Below are positions 152 through 19,399 of a DNA stretch of 55,153 nucleotides, piece after piece; the stretch's first letter is position 1; each line of letters starts with the position of its first letter. The stretch is from the NCBI RefSeq assembly GCF_030548465.1, contig NZ_JAUOSF010000014.1, positions 1 to 55,153 on the forward strand, in the 5' to 3' direction. Origin of the DNA: Tamlana sp. 2_MG-2023. GTDB taxonomy: Bacteria; Bacteroidota; Bacteroidia; Flavobacteriales; Flavobacteriaceae. A program made the translations under genes and the position numbers. The notes below the pieces were generated by a model. That model ran no database searches, was not told the origin of the DNA, and was given only the letters and a program-made list of their open reading frames with translations.

Positions 152-197
152 ACAAACATCACACGCCCCAAACCCCTCATAAACAAAGGGGTTATAG

Positions 198-962: not shown

Positions 963-994
963 GTGTTACGATTTAAAGTTTTAAACATTAGTTT

Positions 995-1030: not shown

Positions 1031-1037
1031 TTTTAAA

Positions 1038-1370: not shown

Positions 1371-1429
1371 GATTAAAGGTTTTAAAGATTAATAATTACC
1401 CCTTTGGTTTTTGATTTTTAATATGATTT

Positions 1430-2464: not shown

Positions 2465-5400
2465 TTAAGTAATTAAATGCAACGCTTCATTTAAGTTGCT
2501 TCTCAAGTGATTATGTTTTAACATATCGTCAAAAATATCAAGAGCCTTTTTTATGAATTTCCTGTTTTTTTCTAGATCCATATTTAGTTTAGAATATATT
2601 GCCAAAATCAATTGAACAGGCTCTTTATCATAATATCCTCTTCTTTGTATGTTTGGAGTTTTATGATAGTTTAGGTTTTGAATCAAATGAAGACATTTTA
2701 CTGGATGCTCATTGACACAGGTTAAAAGTAATTGCAGAAAATAGCTAGGTTGAGCCATACATAGCTTACTCTTTGAGTACTTCAATAAAAACTCATAAGA
2801 TTCTTCGAAGTTATGTTTTTTGAATTTTCTTAAAATGATTCCTGAATAGGCTGTCGCAAAATCCTCATTATTTTTATTTAAAAATTCAAGCAAGATTTTA
2901 AATGCTCGTTTTGAGGTTGTCTCATTTTCATTATAAAGATTTGCTTCAGCAATATTCAATGCACATAGTTTTGCCTCACTACTTGATTTTATAAACTTTT
3001 TATAAAGTCTTTTATCAGACATTTTTTCATTTAGCCAACTCAAAACTATAACGTGTCCATCCTTATGTAATTTTTTATTCTGAATAATTTTTTCAAAATA
3101 GGGATACATTTCTTTATGAAATTTAACATTGAAATATTGAGATGTTCTAAAAGAGTTTTTTAATAATTCAATATCATCAGTTTCAGTTAGAAGTTTAAAA
3201 ATTTTAAAACTTCTTGCTAAATCTAAATGGTTCAGATAACCTAACTCTTGCAAAACTGCAACTCTTACGGATGTTTGAAGGTCAAAAGCCGCCTTTTCCG
3301 CAATCTGAAAAATAGTTTCCTCAAATTGTTTTTGTTCATAGCATTGCATTATTCTATGAATAGCAGAACCTCTAACACTATTTAAGCTATCTGATGAAGC
3401 ATCATTTATTGGTTTTTCAGGGTGGGGATGATTTAATGCATTTGTGCTTAAAAAGGTTAAAATTTCATCATCAACTAATTTGTTATCTATCAGGTAATCA
3501 CATTGACGAATGGCATATAAAGTATTTACTAGGTCTAAATTTAATTTGATAAATTTCTTGTATATTATTTTAACTTTTTCCGGTTCACATTTCGCTTGAA
3601 TTAATCCATCAACCCCTGATGATATATAGTCATTAGAAACATTCTCATTTTCAAATAAACTTAGGATAAAGTGATAGAACTTATTAGAGTTACTTCTCAC
3701 ACTATCTACAAATGCTCTAGAATGTTCGAGTTTTCCTCCTTTCGGACCACGCTCTCCACGATAATCATCATTAAACTTTGACATACTATTTTGCCAATTT
3801 TCTAAATCCATTTCTTTATAAGCTTTTTGGGGTAGGGGTGCACCTACTCCATAACTTCTACTAGAAGAAACGTTCAAGGCTTTATTACTATCAACATCAC
3901 CAAACTTTCTATAATATTCTTGATAGGCTTTTTTTAAAGTAGGAATTTGCCATATTTCAACTTTTGGAAGTTGCTTAATAAACAAAAACTTTTTTTTACT
4001 AATACCGTAGAAGTTTACTTTTTCTCGTCCTTCATCATTTTCGTACTTATAATATTTGAAATCGTAAGGACTCTTTACAGAAAGAAGTATTTCCGCTACT
4101 TTTTCTTTTTGCTCTGAGGAAAAGTGGGAAAAATACTGGCCAATTACCTGCCTGAAATACAATTGAAATTTATCGTCGTAACCGTTAAATCCATTTTTAG
4201 CACATACAATACCAATAAACTCATATACACTATCAATATATCTGACTTTTTCATTTTTAAAAGTCAGAAGAATTAAGCGTATAATATCAATAGAGTTTGA
4301 ATTTTTGTGCTCAACAAAAAATTGTAATATGTAATTACTATTTTGAAATTCTGATTTTAGATGCTTTACAAGTAAGTCTTCAACTACAATATGGGCATCC
4401 TCTTTAGAACTGAAACCATCAATAAACTTGGAACATTTATATAGTGGACTTTTAATTTCCTCCAGATGCGATTCATCTTTGTTTTCATCTATTACTGTCT
4501 TATAGAGGTCCAAAATAAAACTGAAACCCACTTCAGGGCTTTTGGCAATTATAGCCTTTAATAATTCTTCTTGTTCACGAAGAAATTTGTTACTATGCCA
4601 GGTATCTCCAGAGCTAAAAACATCAATTAAAATAGGCTTTAACAAATTAATTACGTACAACTCATGATGTTCAAATATCTTTTTTAAAATTTCATAATAC
4701 CAAAAGTTATCTCTGCCCTTGGACTCCTCGTTAAACGTTATATATTTTTCAAAAAATAGAAGTAAATTTTCATGCTCCCATTCGTTAAGCCCCGAAAGAA
4801 CCCTTTCATTAAAATTTGGTTTATCATCAAAATCTTCTAATTCATCTAAATATTTCATTATTGAGAGAGGGACAATATTAATATTATTCCTAAAGAATCG
4901 CCAAACCAGATTTCTTTGATAGTCAACTTTATTTCCTGAATCAAACTTTTCTAAAAAATCAATGCGAAATACTGACTGCTTTTTATAAATTTCATGAATC
5001 TTATTAGCCAACGTTTCCTGATTAAAAAGAAACTTATTCAATGCTTTTTGATGTATTAAATATTCAACCCATCCTTGAGAAACAATAGAATGGACAAATA
5101 CGTCTTCAAAGAGATAATTTTTCGATATGTATCTATGATATATTTCCTTTTCTTGATTTGACGGATTTGTTACAATACCAAGATTACTTATTACTAAGGA
5201 CTTTATATGAAAACGGTACTTAGAAGATTTAAGAATAGAATTTATACTTAAAACATACCTGCTATGGTCATATTCACGTAAGTATTCAAAAACCATCTTT
5301 ATTATAGACCTAACCTCTAAGTTCTGTTCATTCTCATTGAGATAGTGGAATATATCATTCCCTTTTTCTACGAATTGTCTTGAAAAAGTGTAATCATAAA

Positions 5401-6922
5401 AAGTTTGATGAAAGAATTGAATCTCAGATTCTTCTTTGATAATTAATTGATTACTGAGTAGGTATTGAATCTCCGAATAATATCTATCAGAAAACTTATC
5501 ATTGACAACTATCTGCTGTCTATCATACATCTCAATAGCGATACTATAAAATAATTCACTTAATTTTAAGTCCACCATCGGTATTATGAGACTTTTCCAT
5601 AAAGCATCATATAAATCCTTTAAGGATGATAAAGTATCAAGATTAATTTTATTCTTATTAGGAAGCTTACAAAACACTTCCAATTGGTTCGGGGTTCTTA
5701 AAAGTTCTAAAACTTTTTTTTGCGAGCAATTTATCCCAAAGTTTTGAAGCGTATTTATAACTTCCTTCTCCTCTAATAGAGAAGTTTTTATATTATGATA
5801 TTCATTTGATTTGTAAACACTTAGTTCTGCATCATATTTTAGGTCAAAGCTTCTTGATGAAATAATAATTCTAATATTCTTCTCCCCAAGCAATTCGCTA
5901 ACTATTCTATTATAAGTCTGAATATATTCTCTATTTGATGATAGTGTTTGAGACAAAGCATCTAACTGGTCAATAATGATGACAAGTTCCCGTTTGTATG
6001 TGTTTAACGCCCCTATAGTTTTTGAAAAAGTAATATTATCATCTACGAATATTTTGTTTTCGAGTTCCCTTGGGGAATTGGCATAATACTTATCTGCTTT
6101 TATACCTAATACTGTGAAATTTTGCCTTTTTAGTTCTTCATAGACATCCTTCAAGATTACGGACTTCCCCATCCCTTTATCACCTTCCAACACGAGAAGG
6201 TTCTTTTTACCATCTTTTAAATCAGTAACTACCCAATCAATTATTTTCTTCGTCTCTTTTCTATCAATGTGGCTAGATTGTTTTTTATAAAAGTAATTCT
6301 TCACTCTTGATAAAAAGAAGGATGCTTTGTCAAAAGAGCGCTCTATTTGATTAAAATCCATTGATGTAATTACGCTGGTATAAACCTCTTCTCCACAAAA
6401 GGCTTTACACCATTCAGCACCAAAAAAGTCATATACAATTTTTGGATGTGTTTTTAAGATTCTATTTATTGAAGAATAATCCCACTTATCTATCTGTTTT
6501 CCCTTTTTTAAATACTCTTTTTTTAATTCTTCATATCGCTTTTGTACATGTACATCGCTAAAACTAGCAGTAGTACAAATGAAGAATTTTTCCGTTTTAC
6601 TGAACCATTCACCTACTTCAAAATCAGATAAAATTTTGTTTAAGTCTGAAGTAGAAATTGATTCGTATTTTTTGCATTGAAACGTATAGTATTGCCCATT
6701 TTCCCTTAGTCCGTAAATATCTACACCTGACTGTTTTTGTCCTTGTCTTCCGAATATTTCGCAATCGGATATACTAAAACCTTCAACATATTCAACCATT
6801 CTTAACGAAAGCTTTTCAAAGTCTTCCCAGAGCATTCCATTTATAGGCAATAGCATTTGATTACTATCAATAGGTAAATCATATTTTGAAGAAGGAAGAC
6901 TTTTTAAATATTCAAGATTCAT
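2465..6922 (-). CDS. Avs-like STAND NTPase with N-terminal Mrr-type nuclease
   Basis: A 1,485-residue protein in three parts. Residues about 25-120 form a PD-(D/E)xK nuclease of the Mrr type: acidic residues at 34-36, G-V-D68-I, then F-Q82-C-K84-K and a hydrophobic F-F-I-C-T-T strand. Residues about 220-500 form a P-loop NTPase of the STAND class: Walker A G247-DKGMG-K253-S, Walker B L-V-I-I-I-D318-Q-L-D321, and I-I-S-S-R at 354-357. The remaining ~900 residues are leucine- and charge-rich helical repeats without other motifs. This layout is that of antiviral STAND (Avs) proteins, in which the repeats sense a phage protein, the NTPase oligomerises and the nuclease cuts DNA. Which Avs type it is, and its trigger, cannot be told here. 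The truncated HTH gene lies 22 bp upstream on the same strand. Confidence 0.8.
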   Translation of the reverse strand: MNLEYLKSLPSSKYDLPIDSNQMLLPINGMLWEDFEKLSLRMVEYVEGFSISDCEIFGRQGQKQSGVDIYGLRENGQYYTFQCKKYESISTSDLNKILSDFEVGEWFSKTEKFFICTTASFSDVHVQKRYEELKKEYLKKGKQIDKWDYSSINRILKTHPKIVYDFFGAEWCKAFCGEEVYTSVITSMDFNQIERSFDKASFFLSRVKNYFYKKQSSHIDRKETKKIIDWVVTDLKDGKKNLLVLEGDKGMGKSVILKDVYEELKRQNFTVLGIKADKYYANSPRELENKIFVDDNITFSKTIGALNTYKRELVIIIDQLDALSQTLSSNREYIQTYNRIVSELLGEKNIRIIISSRSFDLKYDAELSVYKSNEYHNIKTSLLEEKEVINTLQNFGINCSQKKVLELLRTPNQLEVFCKLPNKNKINLDTLSSLKDLYDALWKSLIIPMVDLKLSELFYSIAIEMYDRQQIVVNDKFSDRYYSEIQYLLSNQLIIKEESEIQFFHQTFYDYTFSRQFVEKGNDIFHYLNENEQNLEVRSIIKMVFEYLREYDHSRYVLSINSILKSSKYRFHIKSLVISNLGIVTNPSNQEKEIYHRYISKNYLFEDVFVHSIVSQGWVEYLIHQKALNKFLFNQETLANKIHEIYKKQSVFRIDFLEKFDSGNKVDYQRNLVWRFFRNNINIVPLSIMKYLDELEDFDDKPNFNERVLSGLNEWEHENLLLFFEKYITFNEESKGRDNFWYYEILKKIFEHHELYVINLLKPILIDVFSSGDTWHSNKFLREQEELLKAIIAKSPEVGFSFILDLYKTVIDENKDESHLEEIKSPLYKCSKFIDGFSSKEDAHIVVEDLLVKHLKSEFQNSNYILQFFVEHKNSNSIDIIRLILLTFKNEKVRYIDSVYEFIGIVCAKNGFNGYDDKFQLYFRQVIGQYFSHFSSEQKEKVAEILLSVKSPYDFKYYKYENDEGREKVNFYGISKKKFLFIKQLPKVEIWQIPTLKKAYQEYYRKFGDVDSNKALNVSSSRSYGVGAPLPQKAYKEMDLENWQNSMSKFNDDYRGERGPKGGKLEHSRAFVDSVRSNSNKFYHFILSLFENENVSNDYISSGVDGLIQAKCEPEKVKIIYKKFIKLNLDLVNTLYAIRQCDYLIDNKLVDDEILTFLSTNALNHPHPEKPINDASSDSLNSVRGSAIHRIMQCYEQKQFEETIFQIAEKAAFDLQTSVRVAVLQELGYLNHLDLARSFKIFKLLTETDDIELLKNSFRTSQYFNVKFHKEMYPYFEKIIQNKKLHKDGHVIVLSWLNEKMSDKRLYKKFIKSSSEAKLCALNIAEANLYNENETTSKRAFKILLEFLNKNNEDFATAYSGIILRKFKKHNFEESYEFLLKYSKSKLCMAQPSYFLQLLLTCVNEHPVKCLHLIQNLNYHKTPNIQRRGYYDKEPVQLILAIYSKLNMDLEKNRKFIKKALDIFDDMLKHNHLRSNLNEALHLIT

Positions 6923-6944
6923 ACTAATACTCTTACTATTTATT

Positions 6945-7163
6945 TTATAATGACCTAGAATGTTTTACTTTTTTCTTTATCTCTTTTAGGATGTCATCAA
7001 TATGTTTTTCGTTTTTTATTTCTTCATAAACCTTTTGTGCATACCATAAAGTCGAAAGAGTCTTAAAATCAATTTCTAAAGCTTTCGATAATTTCTTCAA
7101 TTGCTCCTTAGTAGGTCGTCTATCATTATTTTCAATTTTACAAATTTGCAAGTTACCCCCCAA
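6945..7163 (-). pseudogene. 5'-truncated XRE-family helix-turn-helix regulator
   Basis: The frame encodes I-C-K-I-E-N-N-D-R-R-P-T-K-E-Q-L followed by K-A-L-E-I-D and a charged C-terminal helix. This is the second half of a Cro/C1-type HTH domain plus tail. The only possible start is a TTG that directly follows an in-frame TAG, and the first helices of the domain (about 30 residues) are missing. None of the upstream frames I read restores them. The gene appears to have lost its 5' end at about 7157, at the edge of the insertion-sequence remnant. Intact relatives would be repressors of the nuclease gene just downstream. If the stub is still made, it should not bind DNA normally. Confidence 0.65.
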
Positions 7164-7325
7164 CTATTATATACGTACGAACTCTCAATAACAAACCTAT
7201 TAACTGTCGTTACGATTTTTTATAAGCTAGATAACCTTTTCATTTGTCAAAACTTGACTAATTTAATAATATAGTTGGTGAGTCTAAGACATTACATAGC
7301 ATTTTTTACTACCACTAAAAGATGA

Positions 7326-8021
7326 ATTAGTTTCTTATACAATTTATTCAAAAAAAAAATTAGAGAATGTGATGATCAAATAGCCAGTAAACTTGATGAA
7401 ATTATTGGTAAAGACCCTGAAAAAGGTGAGCATTACATTCATAAGAAACCTTACAAAAGACTCAATAAGAACACCCCAAAAAACATAGATATCAATTTAA
7501 AATCTTACAAAATGTTTAAAGGTGTAGATTTATTGGCAATAGAAGGTATGAGCTACAATACTGTTCTTGCTGTAATGAGTGAAGTTGGTTATGATGGGAT
7601 TAAAAAATTTAAAACAGCAAAGCACTTTACTTCTTGGCTTAGACTTGCTCCCAATAACAAAGTAAGTGGTGGAAAAGTATTCTCTAGCAAAATAGGAAAA
7701 GGCAGTAGTAGGTTAAAAATAGCGCTTAGAAATGCTGCTAATTCTATTGGAAACTTAAAGGATAGCACAAGCACACCGCTTAGAGACTTTTTGATAAAAT
7801 CAATTTTAGGAAAGGTAGAGTCTCTGATATTACAGCAACTGCAAGGAAATTAGCCGTAATTATTTGGAACTTGATTGTTAAGGGCATTGCATACAATAAT
7901 CCAGAAGGTTATCTTTACCTTGACCAAAAAAAGAAAACTAGGACTCGTAAAAAGAATGCGTAAGCAAATTGATAAATATGGACTCACAAATGATGATTTG
8001 CAACTTGGCAAAAATCAGTAA
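7326..8021 (+). pseudogene. IS110-family transposase remnant (5'-deleted, two frameshifts)
   Basis: The frame 7326-7853 encodes a coiled segment (K-I-R-E-C-D-D-Q-I), then the IS110 C-terminal domain: L-L-A-I-E-G-M-S, S-W-L-R-L-A-P, and G-S-S-R-L-K-I-A-L-R-N-A-A. A T run at 7788-7792 appears one base short: the next frame continues the family pattern (R-K-L-A-V-I-I-W-N-L). A second shift in the A run at 7926-7932 restores K-L-G-L-V-K-R-M-R-K-Q-I-D-K-Y-G-L up to TAA at 8019-8021. The N-terminal RuvC-like DEDD catalytic domain is gone. The remnant cannot be an active recombinase. It separates the two defence modules and probably marks an old rearrangement. Confidence 0.82.
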
Positions 8022-8174
8022 TTTGATTTTACGTTAGTAAGAAGCTGAAAAGCCAACGCACAGTCAAGCACATTTCATTTTTTTCGTGCCTCAAAAAACA
8101 AAAAGAGCTTGCCTTTTCCACCGTATCCGACTGAATTAAACATCCCGAAAATCTAAATAATCATCCTATTTTTA

Positions 8175-8182
8175 TATATTTG
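8175..8182 (+). promoter_or_regulatory. Candidate -7 promoter element (TAnnTTTG) for the five-gene operon
   Basis: TATATTTG at 8175-8182 matches the Bacteroidota -7 consensus TAnnTTTG and lies 19 bp before the first start codon of the operon. No convincing -33 element was seen. Intergenic gaps inside the operon are 4 bp or less, so this is probably its only promoter. Confidence 0.5.
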
Positions 8183-8201
8183 TGTCAAACATTTCTAAAC
8201 A

Positions 8202-8420
8202 ATGACAGAAATAGGAAAGCTTTTGGATAAAAAATCAGTTAATAAAGCTGAAATATCAAGAAGAACAGGTATCAGTACTTCTCGACTAAGTGAATTGAGT
8301 TTAAAAAGTTCAACTCGTCTAACCGCCGAAGAACTTTATTTAATTGCATTGGCAATTGATACTGAACCAGCTGAAGTTTTGGAAGAAGTTTGTAAACATC
8401 TAAAATTAGAAATACAATAA
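8202..8420 (+). CDS. Small Cro/C1-type helix-turn-helix regulator
   Basis: A 72-residue protein that is nearly all HTH: residues about 14-35 (V-N-K-A-E-I-S-R-R-T-G-I-S-T-S-R-L-S-E-L) form the two core helices, followed by L-T-A-E-E-L-Y-L-I-A-L-A-I, the third structural part of the fold. It should bind DNA as a dimer. It is the first gene of a tight operon, with its stop 3 bp before the ATPase/kinase gene. Such position and size are typical of regulators that hold a toxic restriction or defence operon in check. Direct autorepression at the promoter just upstream is inferred. Unlike the HTH gene at 6945-7163 it is complete. Confidence 0.85.
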   Translation: MTEIGKLLDKKSVNKAEISRRTGISTSRLSELSLKSSTRLTAEELYLIALAIDTEPAEVLEEVCKHLKLEIQ

Positions 8421-8423
8421 TTA

Positions 8424-10856
8424 ATGGCTAAAATCGCTTTCAAAGTTTCCGCAAGAGCAGGTAAATTATTGGGTAGAGAGAATTTCTCTAATCCTGAAGG
8501 GGCCATTATGGAATTGGTGAAAAATTCTTATGATGCAGATGCTAAGAACTGTCTAGTCTTATTCGATATTCCTACCAAAAAGATAAAAGATAGTGATGGT
8601 AAAGAAATTGAAATTCCAATAAAAGAACAAAGTATATTATACATTATTGACAATGGAGAAGGAATGACCAAAAAAGTCATTGAAGACCATTGGATGCAAA
8701 TTGGAACAGGCAATAAAGAAAAGGATTACATCTCTGATGATGAAAGAACAAAAACAGGAGCAAAAGGTATAGGACGATTTGCATTGGACAGACTTGGATT
8801 CGAAACAGAAATGTGGACACTTTCAAAAACAGCTGAAAATAATATTGGTTCCTTCTGGAAAATGGATTGGAATCAGTTTGATGAATCTGAAAAGGCAATT
8901 TCTCAGATTGAAGCAGAACTTGTCTCTGAAAAAATAAAATTAACTGAAATAATAAAGTCAATTACCGAAAATAATCAAGTCATAGCAAAAGCAATTGAAA
9001 AAATAAATTTTGACAAGGGTACAATTATTAAAATATCAAACTTAAAGGATGATTGGTTTGATGATGAAACTTCTTCAGTTTTTAAAAGTCTTGAAGCGTT
9101 AATTCCTCCAAAAGAACTAAATATTCCTTTTGAAGTTTACTTTAAACATTTCCAACAACTAAAAGAGTTTGGTAAAGTTGAAACGGCTTTTTTTAATGAT
9201 TATGACTATAAGTTAAAAGCAACATATAACGCTGAAACTTTAAATATAGATTTTGAAATAACAAGAAATGAAATTGATATCAAATTATTAAAAAAGAACT
9301 TTCCAGATGTCTACAAATCAAAAAAACATCCTTATGATTTGGAAACAATTGAAAATAAAACTTTTAAATACTCAAAATCCATTGATAAAGTATTGAAGTG
9401 GAAACTTAACGATTCTAATAAAACATTACTAAAAGACGTGGGTAGTTTTGATTTAACATTTTATTACCTAAAATTTTCAAATTCTTTAAAGGAGGGATAT
9501 CCTTTTAAATCAGTTATAGCTAGTGAAAGAAAATCAACGCTAGAGAGATTTGGAGGAGTTAAAATTTATAGAGATTCATTTAGAGTTAGACCCTATGGAG
9601 ACCCAACAAATGATTGGCTTAGATTAGGAGCTCGAGTTGCTCAAAGTCCAGCTGGGGCTGGACAAAGAATTGGAGATTGGAGAGTTAGACCTGAACAAAC
9701 GGCAGGTATTATTACTATTTCTAGAATGAATAACCCGCTTCTCATTGATAAATCTGATAGAGGCTCTCTTCAGGAAAATGATTCCTTTGAGACTTTTAAA
9801 AAAATAATTGTTGGTGTAATTCACGAATTTGAGTTTGATAGAACAAAAATTTTAAATCCAATATTCCTATACAATAGAAAAGTAAAAGAAAAGTTAAGGG
9901 AAAAAGAACTACAAAAAAGAGCTCAAGCACTTGCTGAAAAAATAGTTGCCCGAAGAAAAAAAGTTGAGGAATCAATTTATGGCAAAAGAAGCAAAATAGA
10001 TTTATTTCAAGAGAAGAAAGAAGAGGAAGAGAAAAAAACATATGAAAAAGCTTTTAAAGACACCTTTAAAGCTATTGATGATGAAAAGGCTGAGCAAGAA
10101 AATCAAGAAATTGTTCAAGTAAGGTCTTTGGCAAGTTTGGGTCTTGTCGTCTCATCTTTTGCCCACGAACTAAAAGATATAAGAGATGATTCTATCGAAA
10201 TAAAAAGACTTGAAGATATATTCAACAAAATTACACCAGAAGAAATAAAAAAACAAATTGAATACGACGATGGTAAAGATATTCTAGAACTACTAAATGA
10301 AAACTCAGATAGAATAATTCATTGGGTCGATTACGCTTTAACAGCTATAAAGAAAGATAAGAGAACAAGAGGTAGTTTCAAATTTTCGGGATTCTTTAAA
10401 TCTTTAAAAACATCTTGGAGTAAAATTTTCAAAAAGAAAGATATTACACTAAATATCTATGACAATATAAAAGATTCATCTTATGATTTTAGAGCTTTTG
10501 AAATGGATATGTCAACTATTTTCACCAATCTCATAAATAATTCTATTGATTCTTTCAATAATTTAAATGAGATTCAAGTAAGAATAATAGAAATAATTGT
10601 AGAATTCAAGAATGAACAAATTGAGATATTGTATTCTGACAACGGAGTTGGTTTAGATGATGTTTTCGAAGATAAAGAGGAAATATTTTTACCATTTAAG
10701 ACAGCTAAAAGAGATAGAAAAGGAAAAGAAATAGGAACAGGTTTAGGAATGTATTTGGTGAAATCTGTAATTGACGATAATAACGGTACTATTGACGTTC
10801 TTGAACCTAAAAAAGGCTTCTCCGTTTTAATCTCATTCCCTACTAGAAAAAAATAA
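8424..10856 (+). CDS. Dual Bergerat-fold protein: MORC/MutL-like ATPase fused to a histidine-kinase-like module
   Basis: An 810-residue soluble protein with two complete GHKL ATP sites. N-terminal site: E30-L-V-K-N34-S-Y-D37-A, D76-N-G-E-G-M, and T-G112-A-K-G115-I-G117-R, the MORC/MutL/Hsp90 pattern, followed by an S5-like region to about 475. Residues about 480-560 are a charged coiled coil. Then comes a possible DHp helix with H581 in F-A-H-E-L-K, and a kinase-type ATPase: N box N702-L-I-N-N706, G1 D739-N-G-V-G, G2 G771-T-G-L-G. No transmembrane or periplasmic sensor region is present, so it acts in the cytoplasm. The next gene encodes a receiver domain, so phosphotransfer from H581 is plausible but not shown. 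It may sense DNA or phage products through the MORC-like half (inference). Confidence 0.85.
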   Translation: MAKIAFKVSARAGKLLGRENFSNPEGAIMELVKNSYDADAKNCLVLFDIPTKKIKDSDGKEIEIPIKEQSILYIIDNGEGMTKKVIEDHWMQIGTGNKEKDYISDDERTKTGAKGIGRFALDRLGFETEMWTLSKTAENNIGSFWKMDWNQFDESEKAISQIEAELVSEKIKLTEIIKSITENNQVIAKAIEKINFDKGTIIKISNLKDDWFDDETSSVFKSLEALIPPKELNIPFEVYFKHFQQLKEFGKVETAFFNDYDYKLKATYNAETLNIDFEITRNEIDIKLLKKNFPDVYKSKKHPYDLETIENKTFKYSKSIDKVLKWKLNDSNKTLLKDVGSFDLTFYYLKFSNSLKEGYPFKSVIASERKSTLERFGGVKIYRDSFRVRPYGDPTNDWLRLGARVAQSPAGAGQRIGDWRVRPEQTAGIITISRMNNPLLIDKSDRGSLQENDSFETFKKIIVGVIHEFEFDRTKILNPIFLYNRKVKEKLREKELQKRAQALAEKIVARRKKVEESIYGKRSKIDLFQEKKEEEEKKTYEKAFKDTFKAIDDEKAEQENQEIVQVRSLASLGLVVSSFAHELKDIRDDSIEIKRLEDIFNKITPEEIKKQIEYDDGKDILELLNENSDRIIHWVDYALTAIKKDKRTRGSFKFSGFFKSLKTSWSKIFKKKDITLNIYDNIKDSSYDFRAFEMDMSTIFTNLINNSIDSFNNLNEIQVRIIEIIVEFKNEQIEILYSDNGVGLDDVFEDKEEIFLPFKTAKRDRKGKEIGTGLGMYLVKSVIDDNNGTIDVLEPKKGFSVLISFPTRKK

Positions 10857-10859
10857 ATT

Positions 10860-11531
10860 ATGGCAACAAAATATAAAATTGGATACATTGACGAAGATGT
10901 AAAACAAGTAAAAAAGTATCAAAGAAGGTTTAGAGATTTTGAAATAGAAATTATTGGTTATGACTTTAATAAAGGTATGAGTTTAAATGAGCTTATGGTT
11001 CAAGTATACTCATCTCCTATTGATTTATTAATGATTGATTATAAGCTAAGAGAAACAAATTTAGTTGCATTTAATGGAGAGGCTGTAGAAAGTGAGTTTT
11101 ATGATAAAAGACCACTATTTCCTTATATTATTTTCACAAATAAAGTAGACCAAGCTGAGCCTTTTGTTGAAGATTGGAGCAAAATTTTCGATAAGGATGA
11201 GATTTTTAGCGAGGAAGAAGAGGACAAAGAAAAAGTTCAACATTTTATAACAACGCTAACCAAAAAAATAGAACAATATAGAAGCCATATAGAAAAGAAA
11301 AAAAATACTATTTCTGAATTATTGTTAAAAGGTCAAGCGGAAGGTTTAAGTTCTTCTGAAGAAGATAAATTACTTTCTTTGCAACGAGAACTTAGGGATT
11401 TAGACAAAACGAAGGTAAAAGAAGTACCTGAAAAACTAATTTCTTATGATAAGTTAGAAGATTTATCCAAAACACGTAAAGAAGCCGAAGCATTCCTACA
11501 ATCATTAATTGAAAAAAGTAAAGGGAAATGA
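10860..11531 (+). CDS. Receiver-domain (response-regulator-like) protein with helical tail and no output domain
   Basis: A 223-residue protein. Residues about 5-120 look like a divergent CheY-type receiver: acidic pocket D11-E12-D13 after the first strand, likely phosphoacceptor D60 in D-L-L-M-I-D-Y-K-L, T93 in I-I-F-T-N-K, and a Lys near 112 (D-K-D-E-I-F). Residues about 120-223 are highly charged and predicted helical or coiled coil, with no DNA-binding motif. It starts 3 bp after the kinase-like gene and overlaps the HNH gene by 4 bp (ATGA), so the three are probably co-translated. The likely role is a phospho-switch between the kinase-like protein and the nuclease or methyltransferase. 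The match to the receiver family is remote and judged by motif only. Confidence 0.68.
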   Translation: MATKYKIGYIDEDVKQVKKYQRRFRDFEIEIIGYDFNKGMSLNELMVQVYSSPIDLLMIDYKLRETNLVAFNGEAVESEFYDKRPLFPYIIFTNKVDQAEPFVEDWSKIFDKDEIFSEEEEDKEKVQHFITTLTKKIEQYRSHIEKKKNTISELLLKGQAEGLSSSEEDKLLSLQRELRDLDKTKVKEVPEKLISYDKLEDLSKTRKEAEAFLQSLIEKSKGK

Positions 11532-12157
11532 ATGTAAGAGAGTTGCTACCTACTAGACGTAAAGTTCCAACAAAATTTCCAAAAGAAGGTAAATGGACAG
11601 AACACAAACCCGATTTACAAGAAGATTTTAATTTTCATTGTGGATATTGTGGCTCATATGATGGATATAGACATACTTGGTTTGAAGTTGACCATTTCAT
11701 TCCAAAATCATTGTTTATTCCTCTTGGAAATATATCAACTGTAGAATATACCAACTTGGTTTATTCTTGTAAATTCTGTAACAATAATAAATTATCAAAA
11801 TGGCCATCAAATGATGTGAATATTCATAATCAAAATAATCAAGGGTTTGTAGACCCTTGTGATAAGGATTTTGATAATCATTTACTTCGTACAAGTGATG
11901 GAGGTATTATGTGGAAAACCGCCTTAGGTCATTGGATGTGGAAGTATGCTTTTAAATTTGACGAAAGAGATTATTCAATAAAATTATTATGGGAACTAAA
12001 CCAGAGAAGAAAATTGATTGACGCTTTTATTATTGAACTGAATAAAAGAGATGAAAATTCAAAAGAATATAAAGAAATTTTGAAAGAAGCTGAAAAAATA
12101 AGTTTTGAATATTACAGATACGATAAAGAATTGATGAAATATTATAACAGTTTATAG
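11528..12157 (+). CDS. HNH endonuclease
   Basis: A 209-residue protein with an HNH (beta-beta-alpha-metal) nuclease core: zinc pair C38-G-Y-C41, E53-V-D55-H56 with the catalytic His, N76 in Y-T-N-L-V-Y-S, a second zinc pair C81-K-F-C84, and N-N-N-K88. Residues 100-209 are helical and could contact DNA or a partner. All metal and catalytic positions of the family that I can judge are present, so it should cut nucleic acid. Its start overlaps the receiver gene by 4 bp and its stop is 4 bp before the methyltransferase gene. It may be the restriction partner of that methyltransferase, or the effector of the kinase/receiver pair. The two are not exclusive. Confidence 0.87.
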   Translation: MNVRELLPTRRKVPTKFPKEGKWTEHKPDLQEDFNFHCGYCGSYDGYRHTWFEVDHFIPKSLFIPLGNISTVEYTNLVYSCKFCNNNKLSKWPSNDVNIHNQNNQGFVDPCDKDFDNHLLRTSDGGIMWKTALGHWMWKYAFKFDERDYSIKLLWELNQRRKLIDAFIIELNKRDENSKEYKEILKEAEKISFEYYRYDKELMKYYNSL

Positions 12158-12161
12158 CTAA

Positions 12162-13733
12162 ATGAATAAAAAAGATACTGGTTCATATTACACGCCATCA
12201 TATTTGGCTGAATTTATTTCTAAAAGAGTATTGTCTCATTTTGGAAACAGAACTCGTATGTCAATATTAGAACCAAGTGTTGGAGATGGAGCATTTATTT
12301 CAGAGTTAGAAAAAGAGAAAAACATAAACATCAACTTAACGGCTTTAGACATTAATAAAGTTGAATTAAAAACGGCTTCAGTTAAGTGGAGCAGAAAAAC
12401 GGCTTCATTTATAGAAACGGACTTCTTAGAATTTTCAACTACTAAACAATATTCCGCTATAGTTGGTAATCCACCATATATCAAAAAAAACATTCTTAGT
12501 TCAAAACAAATCGAATTATGCAAAAAAATACATTCTAACGAAGAACTAACAGAAGCATCAGTTAAAAATATTTGGACAACATTTTTGGTAAAAGCAAATA
12601 CGTTTTTGGCTAAAAATGGAGTTTTAGCTTTTGTCTTACCATCAGAATTATTACAAGTTAAATTTGCCGAAGAGATTAGAGAATATTTAAAAGCCCAATT
12701 TGAAAGAATTGAAATATTTACTTTCAATGATTTAATGTTTGAGTGCAAAGGTCAAGATACAATCGTTCTTTTCGCCTATAAGAAATCTGATAATAAAGGC
12801 GAGTTTTTTGCTAACACTACTTCTAAAGAAGATTTAATAAACGATAGCTTCGTTTTAAAAAATAATGAATTACTTGTTTCCTCAAAGGTAAAATGGACTC
12901 ATCATTTTTTAACCTCTGATGAATTAACATTTATAGATAACCTAAAGAAAGTACTTAAAAATGTAAATTATTATACAGATTCAAAACCTGGTATTGTAAC
13001 TGCTGCAAATAAGTTTTTCATTATTGATAAAGAAACTGAAAAACAATACAATTTATCAAAGCACACGAAACCAATAATTCAGAAAGGCCAATTTGTAAAT
13101 GGAAGTGTCGTATTTAATAACGAAGACTTTCAAAATCTTGAGGATAATAAACGTCCTACTAAGCTTCTTCAGTTAAATGATAATGATAAGATTTCAAAAA
13201 ATCTAAGAGAGTATTTAAAATTAGGAGAATTAGAAGAAATACCTAATAGATACAAATGTAAAATCAGAAACAATTGGTATGTTATTCCTAACATATCCGA
13301 GAAACCTGATGCATTCTTCTTTAAGCGAAGCCATTTATATCCTAAGCTTCTAAAGAACAATTCTAATGCCTTTGTAACCGATTCTGCGTATAAAGTTGCA
13401 ATGAGAAACGATTATGATTTAAATAGCTTTATATACTCGTTTTACAATACTTTAACCCTGCTTCTATCTGAATTGGATGGCAGATATTACGGTGGTGGTG
13501 TTTTAGAGCTTATTCCGAGTGAATTTAAAAAATTACCTATTCCGTTCATTAAGATTAATGAAAATCAATTTAAAGACTTCACCACTAGTTTCGAAAAGAA
13601 ATCAAATATTGAGCAAATATTAATACAGAACGATTATAACATCCTTAACCCCACTCTAGGAATTAATAATGAGGATTTACTAAAGTTGACTGGAATCAGG
13701 AATAAATTAAAAAAGAAAAGATTGCGTGAATAA
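12162..13733 (+). CDS. N6-adenine DNA methyltransferase (Eco57I/gamma-class type)
   Basis: A 523-residue class I SAM-dependent methyltransferase. Motif X-like T-G-S-Y-Y-T-P (6-12) comes first, then motif I E37-P-S-V-G-D-G-A-F for SAM binding, an acidic motif II at D63, and motif IV N103-P-P-Y106, the catalytic signature for exocyclic amino groups, here adenine N6. Residues about 260-480 probably form the target-recognition domain (G-R-Y-Y-G-G-G-V-L-E near 445). No fused nuclease or helicase is visible, so this is a separate modification subunit with the HNH protein as a likely partner. It is the last gene of the operon, facing the integrase gene 49 bp away. The recognition sequence is unknown. 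Confidence 0.88.
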   Translation: MNKKDTGSYYTPSYLAEFISKRVLSHFGNRTRMSILEPSVGDGAFISELEKEKNININLTALDINKVELKTASVKWSRKTASFIETDFLEFSTTKQYSAIVGNPPYIKKNILSSKQIELCKKIHSNEELTEASVKNIWTTFLVKANTFLAKNGVLAFVLPSELLQVKFAEEIREYLKAQFERIEIFTFNDLMFECKGQDTIVLFAYKKSDNKGEFFANTTSKEDLINDSFVLKNNELLVSSKVKWTHHFLTSDELTFIDNLKKVLKNVNYYTDSKPGIVTAANKFFIIDKETEKQYNLSKHTKPIIQKGQFVNGSVVFNNEDFQNLEDNKRPTKLLQLNDNDKISKNLREYLKLGELEEIPNRYKCKIRNNWYVIPNISEKPDAFFFKRSHLYPKLLKNNSNAFVTDSAYKVAMRNDYDLNSFIYSFYNTLTLLLSELDGRYYGGGVLELIPSEFKKLPIPFIKINENQFKDFTTSFEKKSNIEQILIQNDYNILNPTLGINNEDLLKLTGIRNKLKKKRLRE

Positions 13734-13782
13734 GCCAACACTGGAAGCCATACACATTTACAGTCTGATCATCTTTATTTAT

Positions 13783-15018
13783 TTAATTTTCACTCTCAAA
13801 CTTTAGCTTCTTTTTCAAAGAAAGCATATCTGTGCTAACCTTTCTCTCAATAACTTTAGCATAAATTTGAGTAGTTGCGACTCTAGTATGCCCAAGCAAT
13901 TTTGATACAGTTTCAATAGGAACTCCATTAGTTAAAGTAATCGTTGTAGCAAAAGTATGCCTTGCAATATGAAAGGTCAGATTCTTCTTTATACCACAGG
14001 CATCTGCTATTTCCTTTAAATATAAATTCAATTTTGCATTTGAAATGACAGGAAATAAGGTTTCAGATACTATTGTCATTGGGTGATTGCTATATTTAGC
14101 AATAAGTTCTTGAGCTTTATCCAAAATAGGCACTTTCACAGGGGTTTTTGTTTTTTGTCGTTTAGTGATAATCCAATTAAATCCATCAATACCCATTACA
14201 ATATTTGATTCAGTTAAAACTATGATATCGGCATAACTAATCCCTGTATAACAACTAAATATAAACAGATCCCTTACTCTGTCTAATCGTTCAATTGGAA
14301 AATTATATGTTTCTATGTTTGAAAGTTCATTAGCCGATAGAAACTCCCTTTCTCTTTTTTCAAAAGTCGGTTTCCAACGAATGAAAGGGTCTTTATCTAT
14401 CCACTCTAAATGAAATGCCAAAGTTACCATTTTACGGAAACGTTGAATATGTTTCATTACAGTATTATGACTCATGCCATTAGGGTGTCCCTTAGGCCAA
14501 TAAGTATGTAAAAAGTGTTCAAAATCACAAATAAACTTATAGTCTAGTTGGTTTAGATAAATATCAGTGGTTTTAAAAACTCTTTTCAAATACCTTTTAA
14601 TATATTTTTCAGTGACTAAAAAGTTTCGAATAGTCCCAGAAGCGAGAGTACTTTCTGATTTTTTAGCATGATAATCTATAATATTTTGAAGTGTCTTTGC
14701 ATTTTCGCCCTCTCCTACATAATTAGACTTTATCAATTTGGCAGTAACCAATTTCTTTTTGAAGATCAAGTCTTGATAACATTGAAAAATTTGTGAGTGA
14801 ACTTGGTCTAAATACAAATTAACTTGGCTTGCCTCGGATGAATTTCCTGTTGCTTTTTTCTTTTTAGTATCCCAAATTTCAAGATGTACTTTCCTTTTAG
14901 TACTAATATTTACCCTTTTACCATTTACACTAACCCTTGCATAAATTAAAGCATAATTGAAGATTGCCTTCTTTTGGTCTACCCAAAAAAGGATGGAAAA
15001 TGTGTTTGTTGTACGCAT
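13783..15018 (-). CDS. Tyrosine recombinase / integrase (IntDOT-like)
   Basis: A site-specific integrase of the Bacteroidota type. Numbering below is from the upstream in-frame ATG at 15045 (420 residues). I prefer the tenth-codon ATG at 15018 (411 residues, MRTTNTFSILFWVDQ), which matches how relatives begin. There is an N-terminal arm-binding domain, a SAM-like core-binding domain (~115-215) and a catalytic domain with a Lys in T-K-R-Q-K (near 295), H359-I-A-R362-H, H386 in L-L-G-H-T-R and nucleophile Y395. The usual first Arg is S270 (Y-T-G-I-S-Y-A-D), as in IntDOT. The gene lies 229 bp from the 3' end of tRNA-Arg, its presumed attachment site, and should drive integration and excision of the element. 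Confidence 0.93.
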   Translation of the reverse strand: MRTTNTFSILFWVDQKKAIFNYALIYARVSVNGKRVNISTKRKVHLEIWDTKKKKATGNSSEASQVNLYLDQVHSQIFQCYQDLIFKKKLVTAKLIKSNYVGEGENAKTLQNIIDYHAKKSESTLASGTIRNFLVTEKYIKRYLKRVFKTTDIYLNQLDYKFICDFEHFLHTYWPKGHPNGMSHNTVMKHIQRFRKMVTLAFHLEWIDKDPFIRWKPTFEKREREFLSANELSNIETYNFPIERLDRVRDLFIFSCYTGISYADIIVLTESNIVMGIDGFNWIITKRQKTKTPVKVPILDKAQELIAKYSNHPMTIVSETLFPVISNAKLNLYLKEIADACGIKKNLTFHIARHTFATTITLTNGVPIETVSKLLGHTRVATTQIYAKVIERKVSTDMLSLKKKLKFESEN

Positions 15019-15087
15019 AGTTGTCGTCTTTAAATTATTAAACATTTATAGACGAAAGTCAAATCAACTATTCGAGTTCTTTAGAAT

Positions 15088-15122
15088 TTTTCAAAGTGTC
15101 AGTTGAACTGACACTTTGAAAA
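15088..15122. repeat. 35-bp near-perfect palindrome between integrase and tRNA-Arg
   Basis: Two 17-nt arms (15088-15104 and 15106-15122, core caaagtgtcagtt / aactgacactttg) are exact reverse complements around one central base. The site lies 69 bp before the preferred integrase start codon, between the gene and the presumed attachment site. Candidates are an operator of the integrase gene, an integrase or excisionase arm site, or a terminator protecting the tRNA side. None can be chosen from sequence alone. Confidence 0.75.
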
Positions 15123-15246
15123 TTAACTGACGGATAGCTACCATATTAATTAAATTACTATCAAATCAATTGTACTCTTAAAAACCTAAAAACCAATTAA
15201 TTCATAAGAATTACATGGCTTTGCAACTAAATAATTTTAGTTTCAG

Positions 15247-15320
15247 TGACCGCGAAGGGATTCGAACCCCCAACCCTCAGAGCCGAAATCTGATATTCTA
15301 TCCAGTTGAACTACGCAGCC
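15247..15320 (-). tRNA. tRNA-Arg (anticodon UCG)
   Basis: A complete cloverleaf on the minus strand: 7-bp acceptor stem (GGCTGCG with CGCGGTC, two G-U pairs), D arm GTTC/GAAT, anticodon stem TCAGA/TCTGA with loop TTTCGGC giving UCG, T arm GGGGG/CCCTT with loop TTCGAAT, discriminator A. CCA is not encoded, as usual in this phylum. Its 3' end points to the integrase gene, so it is the likely integration target of the element to the left. The 3' end remains intact, as expected when the element restores it. Confidence 0.95.
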
Positions 15321-15363
15321 AAAATACCGCGTGATACACGGCATATCTTTTATATATTTTAAT

Positions 15364-15813
15364 TTAAGACAATCTAGCCTTAACAACGTTTGAAATGGTT
15401 TTCCCGTCTGCTTTACCTGCCAATTCTTTATTTACCACACCCATAACTTTACCCATATCTCTCATGCCTACAGCACCTAATTTTGAAATGGTTTCATCAA
15501 CGACTTTAGTAATTTCTTCTTCAGATAAAGCCTCTGGTAAAAATTGTGCTATCACATCGGCTTCAGCTAATTCTGGAGCTGCCAAATCCTCACGATCTTG
15601 CTCTAAATAAATAGCTGCACTATCACGACGTTGTTTCACTTGTTTTTGAAGTATTTTTAGCTCTTGCTCTTCGGTTAACTCTTCTTTGGCTCCAGTTTCT
15701 GTTTGTGCTAACAAAATCGCAGATTTTACAGCACGTAAAGCCGTTAAAGCTGTTTGATTTTTAGATTTCATCGCTTCTTTCAAAGCCGTCATAATTTCTG
15801 CTTGTAAACTCAT
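15364..15813 (-). CDS. GatB/YqeY domain-containing protein
   Basis: A 149-residue protein (from the ATG at 15813, MSLQAEIMTALKEAM; an upstream in-frame ATG at 15855 adds 14 unlikely residues). It matches the YqeY family, a helical domain shared with the tail of GatB, the amidotransferase subunit that acts on mischarged Glu/Asp-tRNA. Typical segments are A-L-R-A-V-K-S-A-I, the helical K-Q-V-K-Q-R-R-D-S-A stretch and G-M-R-D-M-G-K-V-M-G-V-V-N. The stand-alone protein probably interacts with tRNA; its exact role is not established. It follows ftsZ on the same strand, past a strong terminator, and is the last core gene before the tRNA and the accessory region. Confidence 0.9.
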   Translation of the reverse strand: MSLQAEIMTALKEAMKSKNQTALTALRAVKSAILLAQTETGAKEELTEEQELKILQKQVKQRRDSAAIYLEQDREDLAAPELAEADVIAQFLPEALSEEEITKVVDETISKLGAVGMRDMGKVMGVVNKELAGKADGKTISNVVKARLS

Positions 15814-15890
15814 TTTCTTAACATATTTATACGCGAAGATACTAAGAAAAAACATGCGCTCATATCTATCATAATGTAAATTTACGCCAC

Positions 15891-15928
15891 AAAAAACCCG
15901 AAAAGCTACTTTTAGACTCTTCGGGTTT
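15891..15928 (-). terminator. Intrinsic terminator closing the dcw cluster
   Basis: A 9-bp perfect stem (aaacccgaa at 15894-15902, ttcgggttt at 15920-15928) with a 17-nt loop. Read on the minus strand it runs into a T tract, 24 bp after the ftsZ stop. It should separate ftsZ from the YqeY-domain gene. Confidence 0.85.
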
Positions 15929-15951
15929 CAGGCTCAGTTAGTCAACTCAAA

Positions 15952-17949
15952 TTAATCTACGTTATCGTGTAAAAAAGAATTATTGCTTCTTAATTGAATA
16001 TCATCATTATCATCAAAACCAATACTTGTTCTTGATCTATCTGTTTCAGACGAATGTTTAGCAGCGTTTAGATTTACACCTTGGCGCTTATATGCTGGCA
16101 CTTTTTCAATATCGTCTATTTTAGAACTATTGAATTTATAATTGAAGTCCTTCATTTTACGTCTACGTTCTTCAGCACGATCTTTTAGCAACTCCGAAAT
16201 TGGTGTATTCATAGGATCTACCTCATCATTTTCTTCCTCTAGGGGCGCTGGTTTTTCAACCACTTTTCTTTCAAAAACGATATCTTCATCTTCTTGCTCT
16301 AGAACTTCGCTTGATTTTTGCTGTTCTTTAACTTTCGAAGATTCGGTATCGTCATAATCATCTAAAGCATAACGAATATCACCTCTTTCATTAGTTTCTG
16401 TTACCGAAATAACTTCTACATAATCATTTACAGAGATATCTTTAACATCATCACTCATTAAATCATGAGAAATAACTTCCTCTACTTCGTCTTCAACCTC
16501 CTCTGGAGTTTCTTGCTTAGATGAAATTGGCATATCGAAGGTTAATGTGATTTGCTTTTCATCTTCAACAAAATCTGAAACTACTTCAATCTCCTTTTCT
16601 TCTGAAACTTCAGGAGCATTACGAGATACTGGGCTAAAGATAAAATCATCTTCATCGACATCATCAACCTTATCTGTTACCTCCTCATAAGTTACTCCAA
16701 TGTTTCTAATTAACTCTGAAGTTGGAATCAAATCAATATTTTTTTTTGATGCTTCTGGTTTTGGTGGCTGTGTTATTCTTTTTGGTGCTTCTTCTTCCAG
16801 GTCTAAGGTATGACGCACCACTCTAGGCGCTTCCCTTTTAACTTGCATTTCTACAGTTGGAGCGATAACAACAGGCTCTTTTTCCTGAGTTTCTGTTTCT
16901 TTATCTTCACCAAGAACATGCTTTACTTTTTTTGTTTCCGTATTAGAAATTTCATCTTGCTGTTCAATATTAAACCCCGTAGCAATAATAGTTACAGCAA
17001 TTGATTCTTCTAAAGCTTCATCTTCACCAACACCCATAATAATTTCAGCACTATGTCCTGCCTCACTTTGGATATGGTCATTAATTTCACCTATTTCATC
17101 AATAGTAATTTCTTGTGAACCTGAAACGATTAGCAGCAATACTTTTTTAGCTCCAGTGATTTTATTATCATTTAATAACGGCGAATCAAGTGCTTTTCTA
17201 ATAGCATCTTGCGCACGGTTTTGTCCAGACGCTAAAGCAGATCCCATAATAGCCGTTCCGCTATTACTTAATACTGTTTTTGCATCACGTAAATCGATGT
17301 TTTGCGTGTAGTGGTGTGTAATAACTTCGGCAATACCACGAGCAGCGGTAGCTAAAACTTCATCTGCTTTCGAGAATCCTGCTTTAAAACCTAAGTTTCC
17401 ATAAACTTCACGAAGTTTATTATTGTTAATTACAATTAACGAATCGACAACACCTCTTAAGTTTTCGATACCTTTTTGAGATTGTTCCAAACGCATTTTA
17501 CCTTCAAACTGAAAAGGCATGGTTACAATTCCCACCGTTAAAATGTCTTTATCTTTTGCCATTTTTGCGATAATTGGAGCTGCACCAGTTCCGGTACCTC
17601 CACCCATTCCAGCAGTGATAAACACCATTTTTGTGTTTGAATCTAACATTTGAGAAATGTCTTCAACACTTTCTACTGCAGATTGCTCTCCAATTTCTGG
17701 ATTAGCACCTGCACCTAACCCTTCGGTTAAATGTACTCCTAATTGTATTTTATTCGGGACTCCACTGTTTTCAAGGGCTTGAGAGTCTGTATTACATACG
17801 TAAAAATCTACGCCTTTAATACCTTGTTGGAACATGTGGTTAATGGCATTACTACCGCCGCCACCAACGCCAATTACCTTAATAACATTTGATCTATTTT
17901 TGGGTAAATCAAATGAAATGTTTGTTTCGAATTTTTCATTGCTGCTCAT
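15952..17949 (-). CDS. ftsZ: Cell division protein FtsZ
   Basis: The tubulin-like GTPase that forms the division ring. Start chosen at the ATG at 17949 (665 residues, MSSNEKFETNI); an in-frame ATG at 18000 would add 17 non-conserved residues. The GTPase domain (~20-330) has G-V-G-G-G-G-S-N, the tubulin signature G-G-G-T-G-T-G (~116-122) and the N-N-N-K-L-R region. Then follows an acidic linker of about 300 residues, far longer than in E. coli FtsZ (383 in total) but usual in flavobacteria. The end holds two conserved blocks, A-Y-K-R-Q-G-V-N-L and the tip S-F-L-H-D-N-V-D, the probable docking sites for FtsA and other partners. It is the last gene of the dcw cluster. Confidence 0.98.
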   Translation of the reverse strand: MSSNEKFETNISFDLPKNRSNVIKVIGVGGGGSNAINHMFQQGIKGVDFYVCNTDSQALENSGVPNKIQLGVHLTEGLGAGANPEIGEQSAVESVEDISQMLDSNTKMVFITAGMGGGTGTGAAPIIAKMAKDKDILTVGIVTMPFQFEGKMRLEQSQKGIENLRGVVDSLIVINNNKLREVYGNLGFKAGFSKADEVLATAARGIAEVITHHYTQNIDLRDAKTVLSNSGTAIMGSALASGQNRAQDAIRKALDSPLLNDNKITGAKKVLLLIVSGSQEITIDEIGEINDHIQSEAGHSAEIIMGVGEDEALEESIAVTIIATGFNIEQQDEISNTETKKVKHVLGEDKETETQEKEPVVIAPTVEMQVKREAPRVVRHTLDLEEEAPKRITQPPKPEASKKNIDLIPTSELIRNIGVTYEEVTDKVDDVDEDDFIFSPVSRNAPEVSEEKEIEVVSDFVEDEKQITLTFDMPISSKQETPEEVEDEVEEVISHDLMSDDVKDISVNDYVEVISVTETNERGDIRYALDDYDDTESSKVKEQQKSSEVLEQEDEDIVFERKVVEKPAPLEEENDEVDPMNTPISELLKDRAEERRRKMKDFNYKFNSSKIDDIEKVPAYKRQGVNLNAAKHSSETDRSRTSIGFDDNDDIQLRSNNSFLHDNVD

Positions 17950-18064
17950 AAATTCTGTTTTACTAGGGTTTGTACTTAATATTTTTATTCTTTGGATCAA
18001 TATGTGCCTTGCGACAACATTATCAAAATTGCTGACTAGACAATTTTGCTACTACTTCATTTTA

Positions 18065-19396: not shown

Positions 19397-19399
19397 AGT

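Follow-up and report, generated by a model that had tools for sequence, protein, structure and literature searches.

The window considered here is a stretch of 55,153 nucleotides from Tamlana sp. 2_MG-2023, a member of the Flavobacteriaceae. Between positions 8202 and 13733 it contains, all on the + strand, five open reading frames separated by 3, 3, -4, and 4 bp (Table 1). The list of open reading frames agrees with the initial annotation as to positions and spacing. Pfam, the relatives of the proteins, and structural models likewise agree with the residues it singled out and with its choice of domains: a helix-turn-helix (HTH) protein, a kinase with two GHKL domains (HK), a receiver (RR), an HNH nuclease, and an N6-type DNA methyltransferase (MTase). 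None of the five matches an NCBIfam family at its curated cut-off among the matches listed (for the kinase, the best 25 of 39). Just before the first gene, TATATTTG fits TAnnTTTG, the consensus of the Bacteroidota -7 promoter, and it is possible that this putative element serves the whole operon as its single promoter. Scans for sigma-70 promoter-like sites (39, vs 28.2 in shuffled sequences, sd 5.3) and terminator-like sites (2 vs 2.1) were not used in considering the operon.

Table 1. Features of the operon and its surroundings, with positions numbered from the first nucleotide of the window
Feature	Position	Strand	Basis or remark
TATATTTG, -7 type box, possible single promoter	8175..8182	+	direct reading; ends 19 bp before first start codon
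Optional Xre/Cro-type HTH protein, 72 aa	8202..8420	+	Pfam HTH_26 1.3e-8
HK, MORC-like GHKL ATPase + histidine kinase, 810 aa	8424..10856	+	Pfam, alignment, profile, model
N-terminal MORC-type GHKL domain of HK, residues 24-167	8493..8924	+	N34, D76-x-G-x-G-M, G112-x-K-G-x-G motifs intact
H581, predicted phosphorylated His, H-box SFAHELK	10164..10166	+	108/108; aligns with HK853 H-box NISHEL
C-terminal kinase ATPase domain of HK, residues 695-808	10506..10847	+	N, G1, G2 boxes; Pfam
RR, receiver + long helical C-terminus, 223 aa	10860..11531	+	homologues, PDB profile search, model
D60, predicted phospho-acceptor of RR	11037..11039	+	104/104
HNH nuclease, 209 aa	11528..12157	+	Pfam HNH 7.8e-7; nearest PADLOC models PtuB
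H56, HNH catalytic His	11693..11695	+	103/103
MTase, M.Eco57I-like N6-adenine-type, 523 aa	12162..13733	+	Pfam, PADLOC
NPPY catalytic motif of MTase	12468..12479	+	NPP 92/92
Island tyrosine recombinase	13783..15045	-	Pfam Phage_int_SAM_5, Phage_integrase
tRNA-Arg(tcg), probable integration site	15246..15320	-	no att repeat found

The operon is flanked on one side by a 113-aa IS110-type transposase ORF and on the other by the tyrosine recombinase and the tRNA-Arg gene it adjoins, which bears out the mobile-element setting that had been claimed for it. The G+C content is 0.29-0.31 at positions 2001-14000 vs 0.32-0.37 past 16 kb. A search of positions 1-20000 for direct repeats that involve the tRNA gene, as an att site would, found none. 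Since the contig begins at base 1 of the window, the island may lack its left end here. Nearby on the - strand (2465-6922) is a gene encoding a 1485-aa protein with a weak match to an Mrr-type nuclease (0.0059), matches to AAA/STAND-type NTPases, and a match to the PADLOC candidate PDC-M54A (2.4e-10). It is preceded by a small ORF (6945-7163, - strand) whose match to HTH_3 falls slightly below the Pfam cut-off. This is probably a separate, NLR-like defence gene.

In the kinase, Pfam finds HATPase_c_3 at residues 24-167 (4.3e-18) and HATPase_c at residues 695-808 (7e-18), and it finds them in 51 and 52, respectively, of 52 kinases of the family. When a profile of the family is compared with PDB sequences, it matches HK853 (profile positions 563-784), with SFAHELK aligned onto the H-box NISHEL, and ZraS (544-795); it matches MORC3 more weakly (positions 27-130, 4.6e-4). 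Foldseek, given the model of the protein (mean pLDDT 81.5), ranks MORC2 first (E 1.3e-11, rmsd 20, TM-score 0.30 relative to the query) and ZraS second; HK853, in a crystal structure with its receiver RR468, comes eighth. The predicted phosphorylated histidine, H581, lies within a helix spanning residues 527-586; the helix blocks are modelled at pLDDT about 50-70. The profile match and the TM-score are such that the likeness of the N-terminal half to MORC proteins may be called moderate. In the alignment of 108 kinases, near copies included, H581 is invariant, as are N702, N706, G741, G771, G773, and G775. The N-terminal motifs are kept nearly as well: E30 and N34 in 106, D76 in 107, and G112, K114, G115, and G117 in all. 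The protein therefore has both a MORC-like fold with intact GHKL ATP motifs, by which MORC and paraMORC ATPases are recognized, and the kinase histidine and N and G boxes of a two-component kinase. The initial annotation had proposed PADLOC as a check; none of the families in version 2.0.0 matches the kinase at E<=0.1.

The receiver in the window, taken alone, gives no receiver match in Pfam. Its identity is upheld when a profile is searched against PDB sequences, and 54 of 87 homologues match Response_reg (PF00072) at E<=0.1, more than match any other family. The model (mean pLDDT 88.6) has a receiver fold followed by long helices, and its Foldseek matches are mostly response regulators, PorX coming first (E 6.8e-6). 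No DNA-binding domain was seen in the Pfam matches of the relatives or in the model. Across 104 receivers, D60 is invariant, position 11 is D in 96 and E in 8, position 12 is E in 72 and D in 32, T93 is kept in 103, and K112 in 93. These are the acidic pair, aspartate, threonine, and lysine that, with the fold, mark a receiver of two-component systems.

One might suppose that the MORC half acts alone, looping or clamping DNA, and that the kinase half survives only as a structural relic and transfers no phosphate. Published models of MORC-type ATPases in restriction-modification operons do invoke looping (PMC2292703, in the part of its text available). A relic would hardly be expected to retain H581 and D60 without exception, T93 in 103 of 104 cases, and every one of the six N- and G-box residues in 108 kinases, and I consider this idea very improbable. 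It is quite likely, judging from residues and gene pairing, that phosphate passes from the histidine of the kinase to the aspartate of the receiver.

The HNH protein has PtuB as its best PADLOC match (2.2e-14). PtuB is an effector nuclease gated by its ATPase partner PtuA. Residues D33, C38, H56, N76, C81, N85, and K88 are kept in all 103 proteins aligned, and the zinc-type cysteines C41 and C84 in 85 each; in two of the proteins (L037 and L038), one cysteine in each zinc-type pair is replaced. The MTase matches Eco57I (1e-14) and M_Eco57I_C (2.5e-42) in Pfam and the type II model MTase_II in PADLOC (1.8e-143), and so belongs to a restriction-modification family. Four catalytic centres are thus invariant in the alignments, near copies included: the kinase histidine, the receiver aspartate, the HNH histidine, and the NPP of the MTase. 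The first three (H581 in 108 of 108, D60 in 104 of 104, and H56 in 103 of 103) had been picked out from the sequence of the window alone.

If these genes work together, then they should be found together elsewhere, and loci were collected from several sources. A tblastn search of plasmids with the kinase gave 86 records, in four of which a single place matches 80% or more of the query. Two of the four, from Bacteroides finegoldii and Salipiger profundus, have gene annotation at the place of the match. In both of these, and in Deinococcus gobiensis, whose match is partial, a kinase, a 'hypothetical protein', an HNH protein, and a DNA methylase adjoin. Two rhizobial plasmid records are without annotation at the kinase match. 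A search with the receiver of 395 genomes of relatives gave seven matches: the window's own, a false one (L039, from genome G162), which was dropped before any counts were made, and five others, in each of which all four genes are present. A profile made from 10 kinases was used to scan genome contigs, from which were taken the best 80 of at least 537 relatives among at least 589 stretches, and to scan viral contigs, which provided 20 loci.

The collection thus comes to 112 loci: the window, 6 from plasmids, 5 from other genomes, 80 from genome contigs, and 20 from viral contigs. Apart from the five found with the receiver, all were picked by the similarity of the kinase, not by context. Set aside were the results of the first search with the kinase (L001-L020: L001 is the window, and most of the rest are ordinary histidine kinases or different GHKL proteins) and a set of short copies (L027-L033), which were refetched at full length except for the window and the false match. 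Profile searches of the 112 loci found the receiver in 107, the HNH protein in 105, and the MTase in 94. In four of them (L022, L025, L094, and L099), the reading of the kinase is split into two or three pieces. A piece of the kinase of at least 650 aa is present in 108, or 105 after the removal of copies more than 90% identical, and 95 of these 105 have both RR and HNH under length filters. Among the ten that do not, L056, L078, and L118 had all four matches before the length filters, and L049 and L071 have HK and RR and end close to the edge of a contig. The remaining five, L135-L139, represent a further variant, in which a related kinase with two GHKL domains is followed by a protein of 414-480 aa, with no HNH match; the partner proteins of L136, L137, and L139 have no match in Pfam, and an N6_N4-type MTase lies upstream in L137 and L139.

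In 94 of the 95 non-redundant loci, HK, RR, and HNH are adjacent, in that order, and on one strand, with median gaps of 1 bp between HK and RR and -4 bp between RR and HNH (start codons being chosen mechanically). The exception, L104, is a contig of 5550 bp from a Lachnospiraceae bin. Its ends overlap by 22 bp, so if it is a circle, the order of the genes is unchanged. This contig carries little beyond the four genes and may be a small circle or an artefact of assembly. An N6-type MTase is near the core in 92 of the 95, as judged by profile, with Pfam run on a few of these MTases. In 87 loci the match to the MTase profile is full length, and the gene is 3' of the core in 67 of them and 5' in 20. 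L120 has a shorter match, and in four loci an N6_Mtase-family gene was missed by the profile, immediately 5' of HK in L129, L130, and L133 and downstream of HNH in L112, where a small ORF intervenes. In the three loci without an MTase (L042, L113, and L121), the contig ends within 143 bp past the HNH gene. The neighbourhood of the 810-residue protein, which the initial annotation had taken as decisive, is therefore conserved so far as HK, RR, HNH, and MTase are concerned. These four genes occur together in unrelated phyla beyond chance, and the existence of a four-gene unit is as good as certain.

The recurrence in unrelated hosts that had been foreseen does not extend to the HTH gene. A protein of the family found in the window lies immediately 5' of HK in only 7 of the 112 loci, the window counted, and the HTH protein is rejected as a core component. 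What was described as a five-part set is a unit of four genes with an optional fifth. A second family of small, Xre-like proteins (by eye) replaces the window's HTH type no more than 35 bp upstream of HK in L037, L043, L044, L051, L052, L069, L073, L080, L082, and L084.

By the titles of their records, the 95 loci come from Bacteroidota (39), Bacillota (14), Pseudomonadota (10), Melainabacteria (3), Thermodesulfobacteriota (1), and an 'archaeon' bin (1) whose binning is unsure; 27 have no phylum in the table, including the Deinococcus plasmid. Among the carriers are plasmids, an integrase island, and contigs with a viral classification. Among 395 evenly drawn Bacteroidota genomes, at least 5, the window's included, have a match to the receiver better than 1e-50, one of them with an internal stop; the figure is a lower bound, up to 7 candidates having been scored per genome. 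The next match, at 5.2e-12, belongs to the background of ordinary receivers. At the level of DNA, no match was found in plasmids, and positions 8424-12400 have none in E. coli genomes. Phage records gave two partial matches at the level of protein. No fused proteins linking the parts were found. Genes flanking 65 of the loci were also considered: at 1e-10, PADLOC gives 74 families for 126 flanking proteins and 35 for 117 control proteins from 20 Bacteroidota stretches, counting families, not proteins. The commonest family accounts for 3 flanking and 4 control proteins, and the control is drawn from one phylum; no enrichment is claimed from these counts. L129-L133, on viral contigs, and L025, on a plasmid of Klebsiella variicola, form a divergent branch whose MTase, about 420-437 aa long, is encoded upstream; Pfam identifies it as N6_Mtase in L129, L130, and L133, and in L025 it is annotated as an N-6 DNA methylase. 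Their HNH protein is divergent, that of L129 having no Pfam match, and the kinase of L025 is in pieces.

Do the four proteins evolve as one? Over the 87 loci, the Spearman correlations of pairwise identities are 0.73 for HK-RR, 0.58 for HK-HNH, and 0.54 for RR-HNH, vs 0.27 for HK-MTase, 0.19 for RR-MTase, and 0.11 for HNH-MTase. When the MTases are clustered at 30% identity and 70% coverage, two main families account for 51 and 38 of the 92, and of 119 pairs of loci whose kinases are at least 55% identical, 42 have MTases from different clusters. Across the same 119 pairs, the lowest identities are 0.34 for RR, 0.32 for HNH, and 0.15 for MTase. When the two main families are mapped onto a quick LG+G4 tree of 87 kinases, they switch at least 14 times, a count that leaves out rows with other MTases and has no shuffle control for the label. 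It is likely, then, that HK, RR, and HNH constitute one machine, as their shared divergence suggests, and that the MTase is a replaceable part.

This result bears on what the nuclease recognizes. The conventional view of such an operon would be that of a type II restriction-modification system, in which the HNH protein is sequence-specific and matched to the MTase, while HK and RR do no more than adjust its activity or timing, for example after the element enters a new cell. An M.Eco57I-type MTase does share an operon with the HNH protein, and some loci have an HTH gene at the position of a C protein. Against this view, the HNH protein keeps its lineage with HK and RR while families of MTases are exchanged, and no DNA-binding domain is seen in the receiver. 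I regard the conventional view as quite unlikely. Since HK, RR, and HNH diverge together and the MTase is swapped, recognition of the MTase's site probably does not fall to the nuclease itself, and the choice of target probably resides in the MTase or in the clamp rather than in the HNH protein. The decoupled divergence of the sequences disfavours, indirectly, recognition of the same site by nuclease and MTase. A small nuclease could shift its specificity by a few substitutions, so the swapping of MTases is no proof that the HNH protein lacks specificity.

Another view would dispense with specificity altogether. The kinase would sense some event of phage infection, and the phosphorylated receiver would unleash a non-specific HNH nuclease that destroys host and phage DNA alike and kills the cell, with the MTase as part of the sensor or as a safety mark. 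Such abortive infection would suit a PtuB-like nuclease that does not track the divergence of the MTase, that is small, and that has no target-recognition domain among its Pfam matches. What it would not account for is the N6-type MTase present in all of the loci with uncut flanks (92 of 95), beyond what a pure suicide effector would require. I think abortive infection unlikely. The logic might also be the inverse: the unphosphorylated receiver would restrain the nuclease, or phosphorylation would silence it, and infection would break the flow of phosphate, making the receiver an antitoxin. The genes for RR and HNH overlap (the median gap of -4) and diverge together, with a correlation that rises from 0.54 over all pairs to 0.80 among the 307 pairs whose kinases are more than 45% identical. 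The same data would suit either sign of control, and I judge this arrangement improbable.

How does the four-gene unit compare with known systems? In Detocs, a kinase and a receiver serve in phage defence, and the receiver is fused to a PNP-type effector. The unit shares with Detocs the logic of kinase and receiver. Unlike Detocs, it has no PNP-type effector and no fusion of receiver to effector, as judged by Pfam for the five proteins and by the model of RR, and instead has the MORC half, the HNH protein, and the MTase. With Septu and the PtuAB proteins of retrons it shares a PtuB-like HNH protein. PtuA, the partner in those systems, is an ABC-type ATPase. There is no PtuA-like partner here, since the kinase has no match in PADLOC, and the kinase and receiver occupy its place.

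The closest precedent is that of the HEF_HK kinases, which have an N-terminal HATPase_c_3 and a C-terminal HATPase_c and are paired with Response_reg_2 proteins beside type II restriction-modification genes, where C5 MTases predominate and HNH variants are found among the nucleases (Bellieny-Rabelo et al. 2021, PMC8011034, from the part of the article available). The unit has in common with them a kinase in which HATPase_c_3, a DHp-like centre, and HATPase_c follow one another, an adjacent receiver-like protein, and a type II setting that may include HNH. The profile of HK aligns with a HEF_HK protein over 700 columns (hhalign probability 99.9). Nonetheless, HEF_HK (PF19191) is found at E<=0.01 in none of 52 kinases, vs 6.8e-21 in the control, the kinase of a HEF_HK locus (L142). 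Response_reg_2 (PF19192) is not found at E<=0.1 in the receiver of the window, is found in at most 1 of 87 receivers (among the best 25 of 84 families), and has no match in the window's genome, vs 1.5e-18 in L142. The profile of RR matches a Response_reg_2 protein with a probability of 0.9 percent. In L142 the partner protein has 550 aa and the MTase beside it, judged by eye, resembles the C5 type, whereas receivers of the window's type are about 220 aa, HNH follows directly after RR, and the MTase is N6-type. Because both Pfam families recognize L142 and neither matches here, the unit is better considered a sister system than a member of HEF_HK.

The claim that such a system had not been described fails, therefore, at the level of the class: a MORC-like kinase and a receiver beside restriction-modification genes were already published (PMC8011034, in the available part). 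MORC and paraMORC ATPases in restriction-modification operons, with HNH neighbours in the case of paraMORC1, are described by Iyer et al. (2008, PMC2292703), so far as the available text of that article goes. They share with the window's protein a MORC-like GHKL half, a restriction-modification setting, and HNH neighbours, and they differ in that the window's ATPase is fused to a histidine-kinase core; in the same text, 'receiver' does not occur and 'histidine kinase' occurs only within the name GHKL. The legend to Fig. 6F of the DefensePredictor article (PMC13092281, in the part available) names HATPase and REC domains in a panel of predicted, unvalidated defence systems, and going by those names, this may or may not be the four-gene system. 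The set was not seen in the available portions of PMC12137116, PMC12839542, PMC7159879, PMC3710099, and PMC9523054. No name for it was found in the libraries searched or in the open-licence literature of PMC, which takes in no bioRxiv and few subscription journals. The general idea, then, was published in 2021 for another family of receivers, and the set with HNH and N6-MTase, for which no name was found, would appear from its sequences to be a variant.

I propose that the four genes encode a restriction system gated by a phosphorelay. The MTase, to judge by its family, would methylate host DNA at its own sites. The kinase, through its N-terminal GHKL clamp, would sense invading DNA or its unmethylated state, perhaps by way of the MTase. 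The cycle of ATP in the clamp would shift the central helices, and the C-terminal domain, whose catalytic residues are in place, would autophosphorylate H581. Phosphate would then move to D60 of the receiver encoded next door, and the phosphorylated receiver would license the HNH protein by direct contact to cut foreign DNA. A role in restricting foreign DNA is likely; the mechanism in full, with every step as given, I would consider evenly balanced between right and wrong. The earlier model, in which the receiver frees the nuclease to cut unmethylated DNA, fits the findings, but the swapping of MTases speaks for a nuclease that has no sequence match of its own to the MTase.

The set spans Bacteroidota, Bacillota, Pseudomonadota, Melainabacteria, Thermodesulfobacteriota, and a Deinococcus plasmid, yet the window's kinase has no counterpart in PADLOC 2.0.0. 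Its logic may be new, a suggestion I make tentatively and at somewhat less than an even chance: recognition, decision, and cutting would be entrusted to separate proteins joined by a His-Asp phosphorelay, with a swappable MTase as the code for self and non-self, a MORC clamp as the sensor of the kinase, and a phosphorylated receiver that activates a nuclease of no matching specificity. If this is true, then a phosphorelay controls the restriction of DNA, and the part that confers specificity is modular and swappable. A MORC-type ATPase would then be seen to drive a signalling output directly, and there would be a bacterial system in which sensing by such an ATPase becomes testable through the readout of phosphate.
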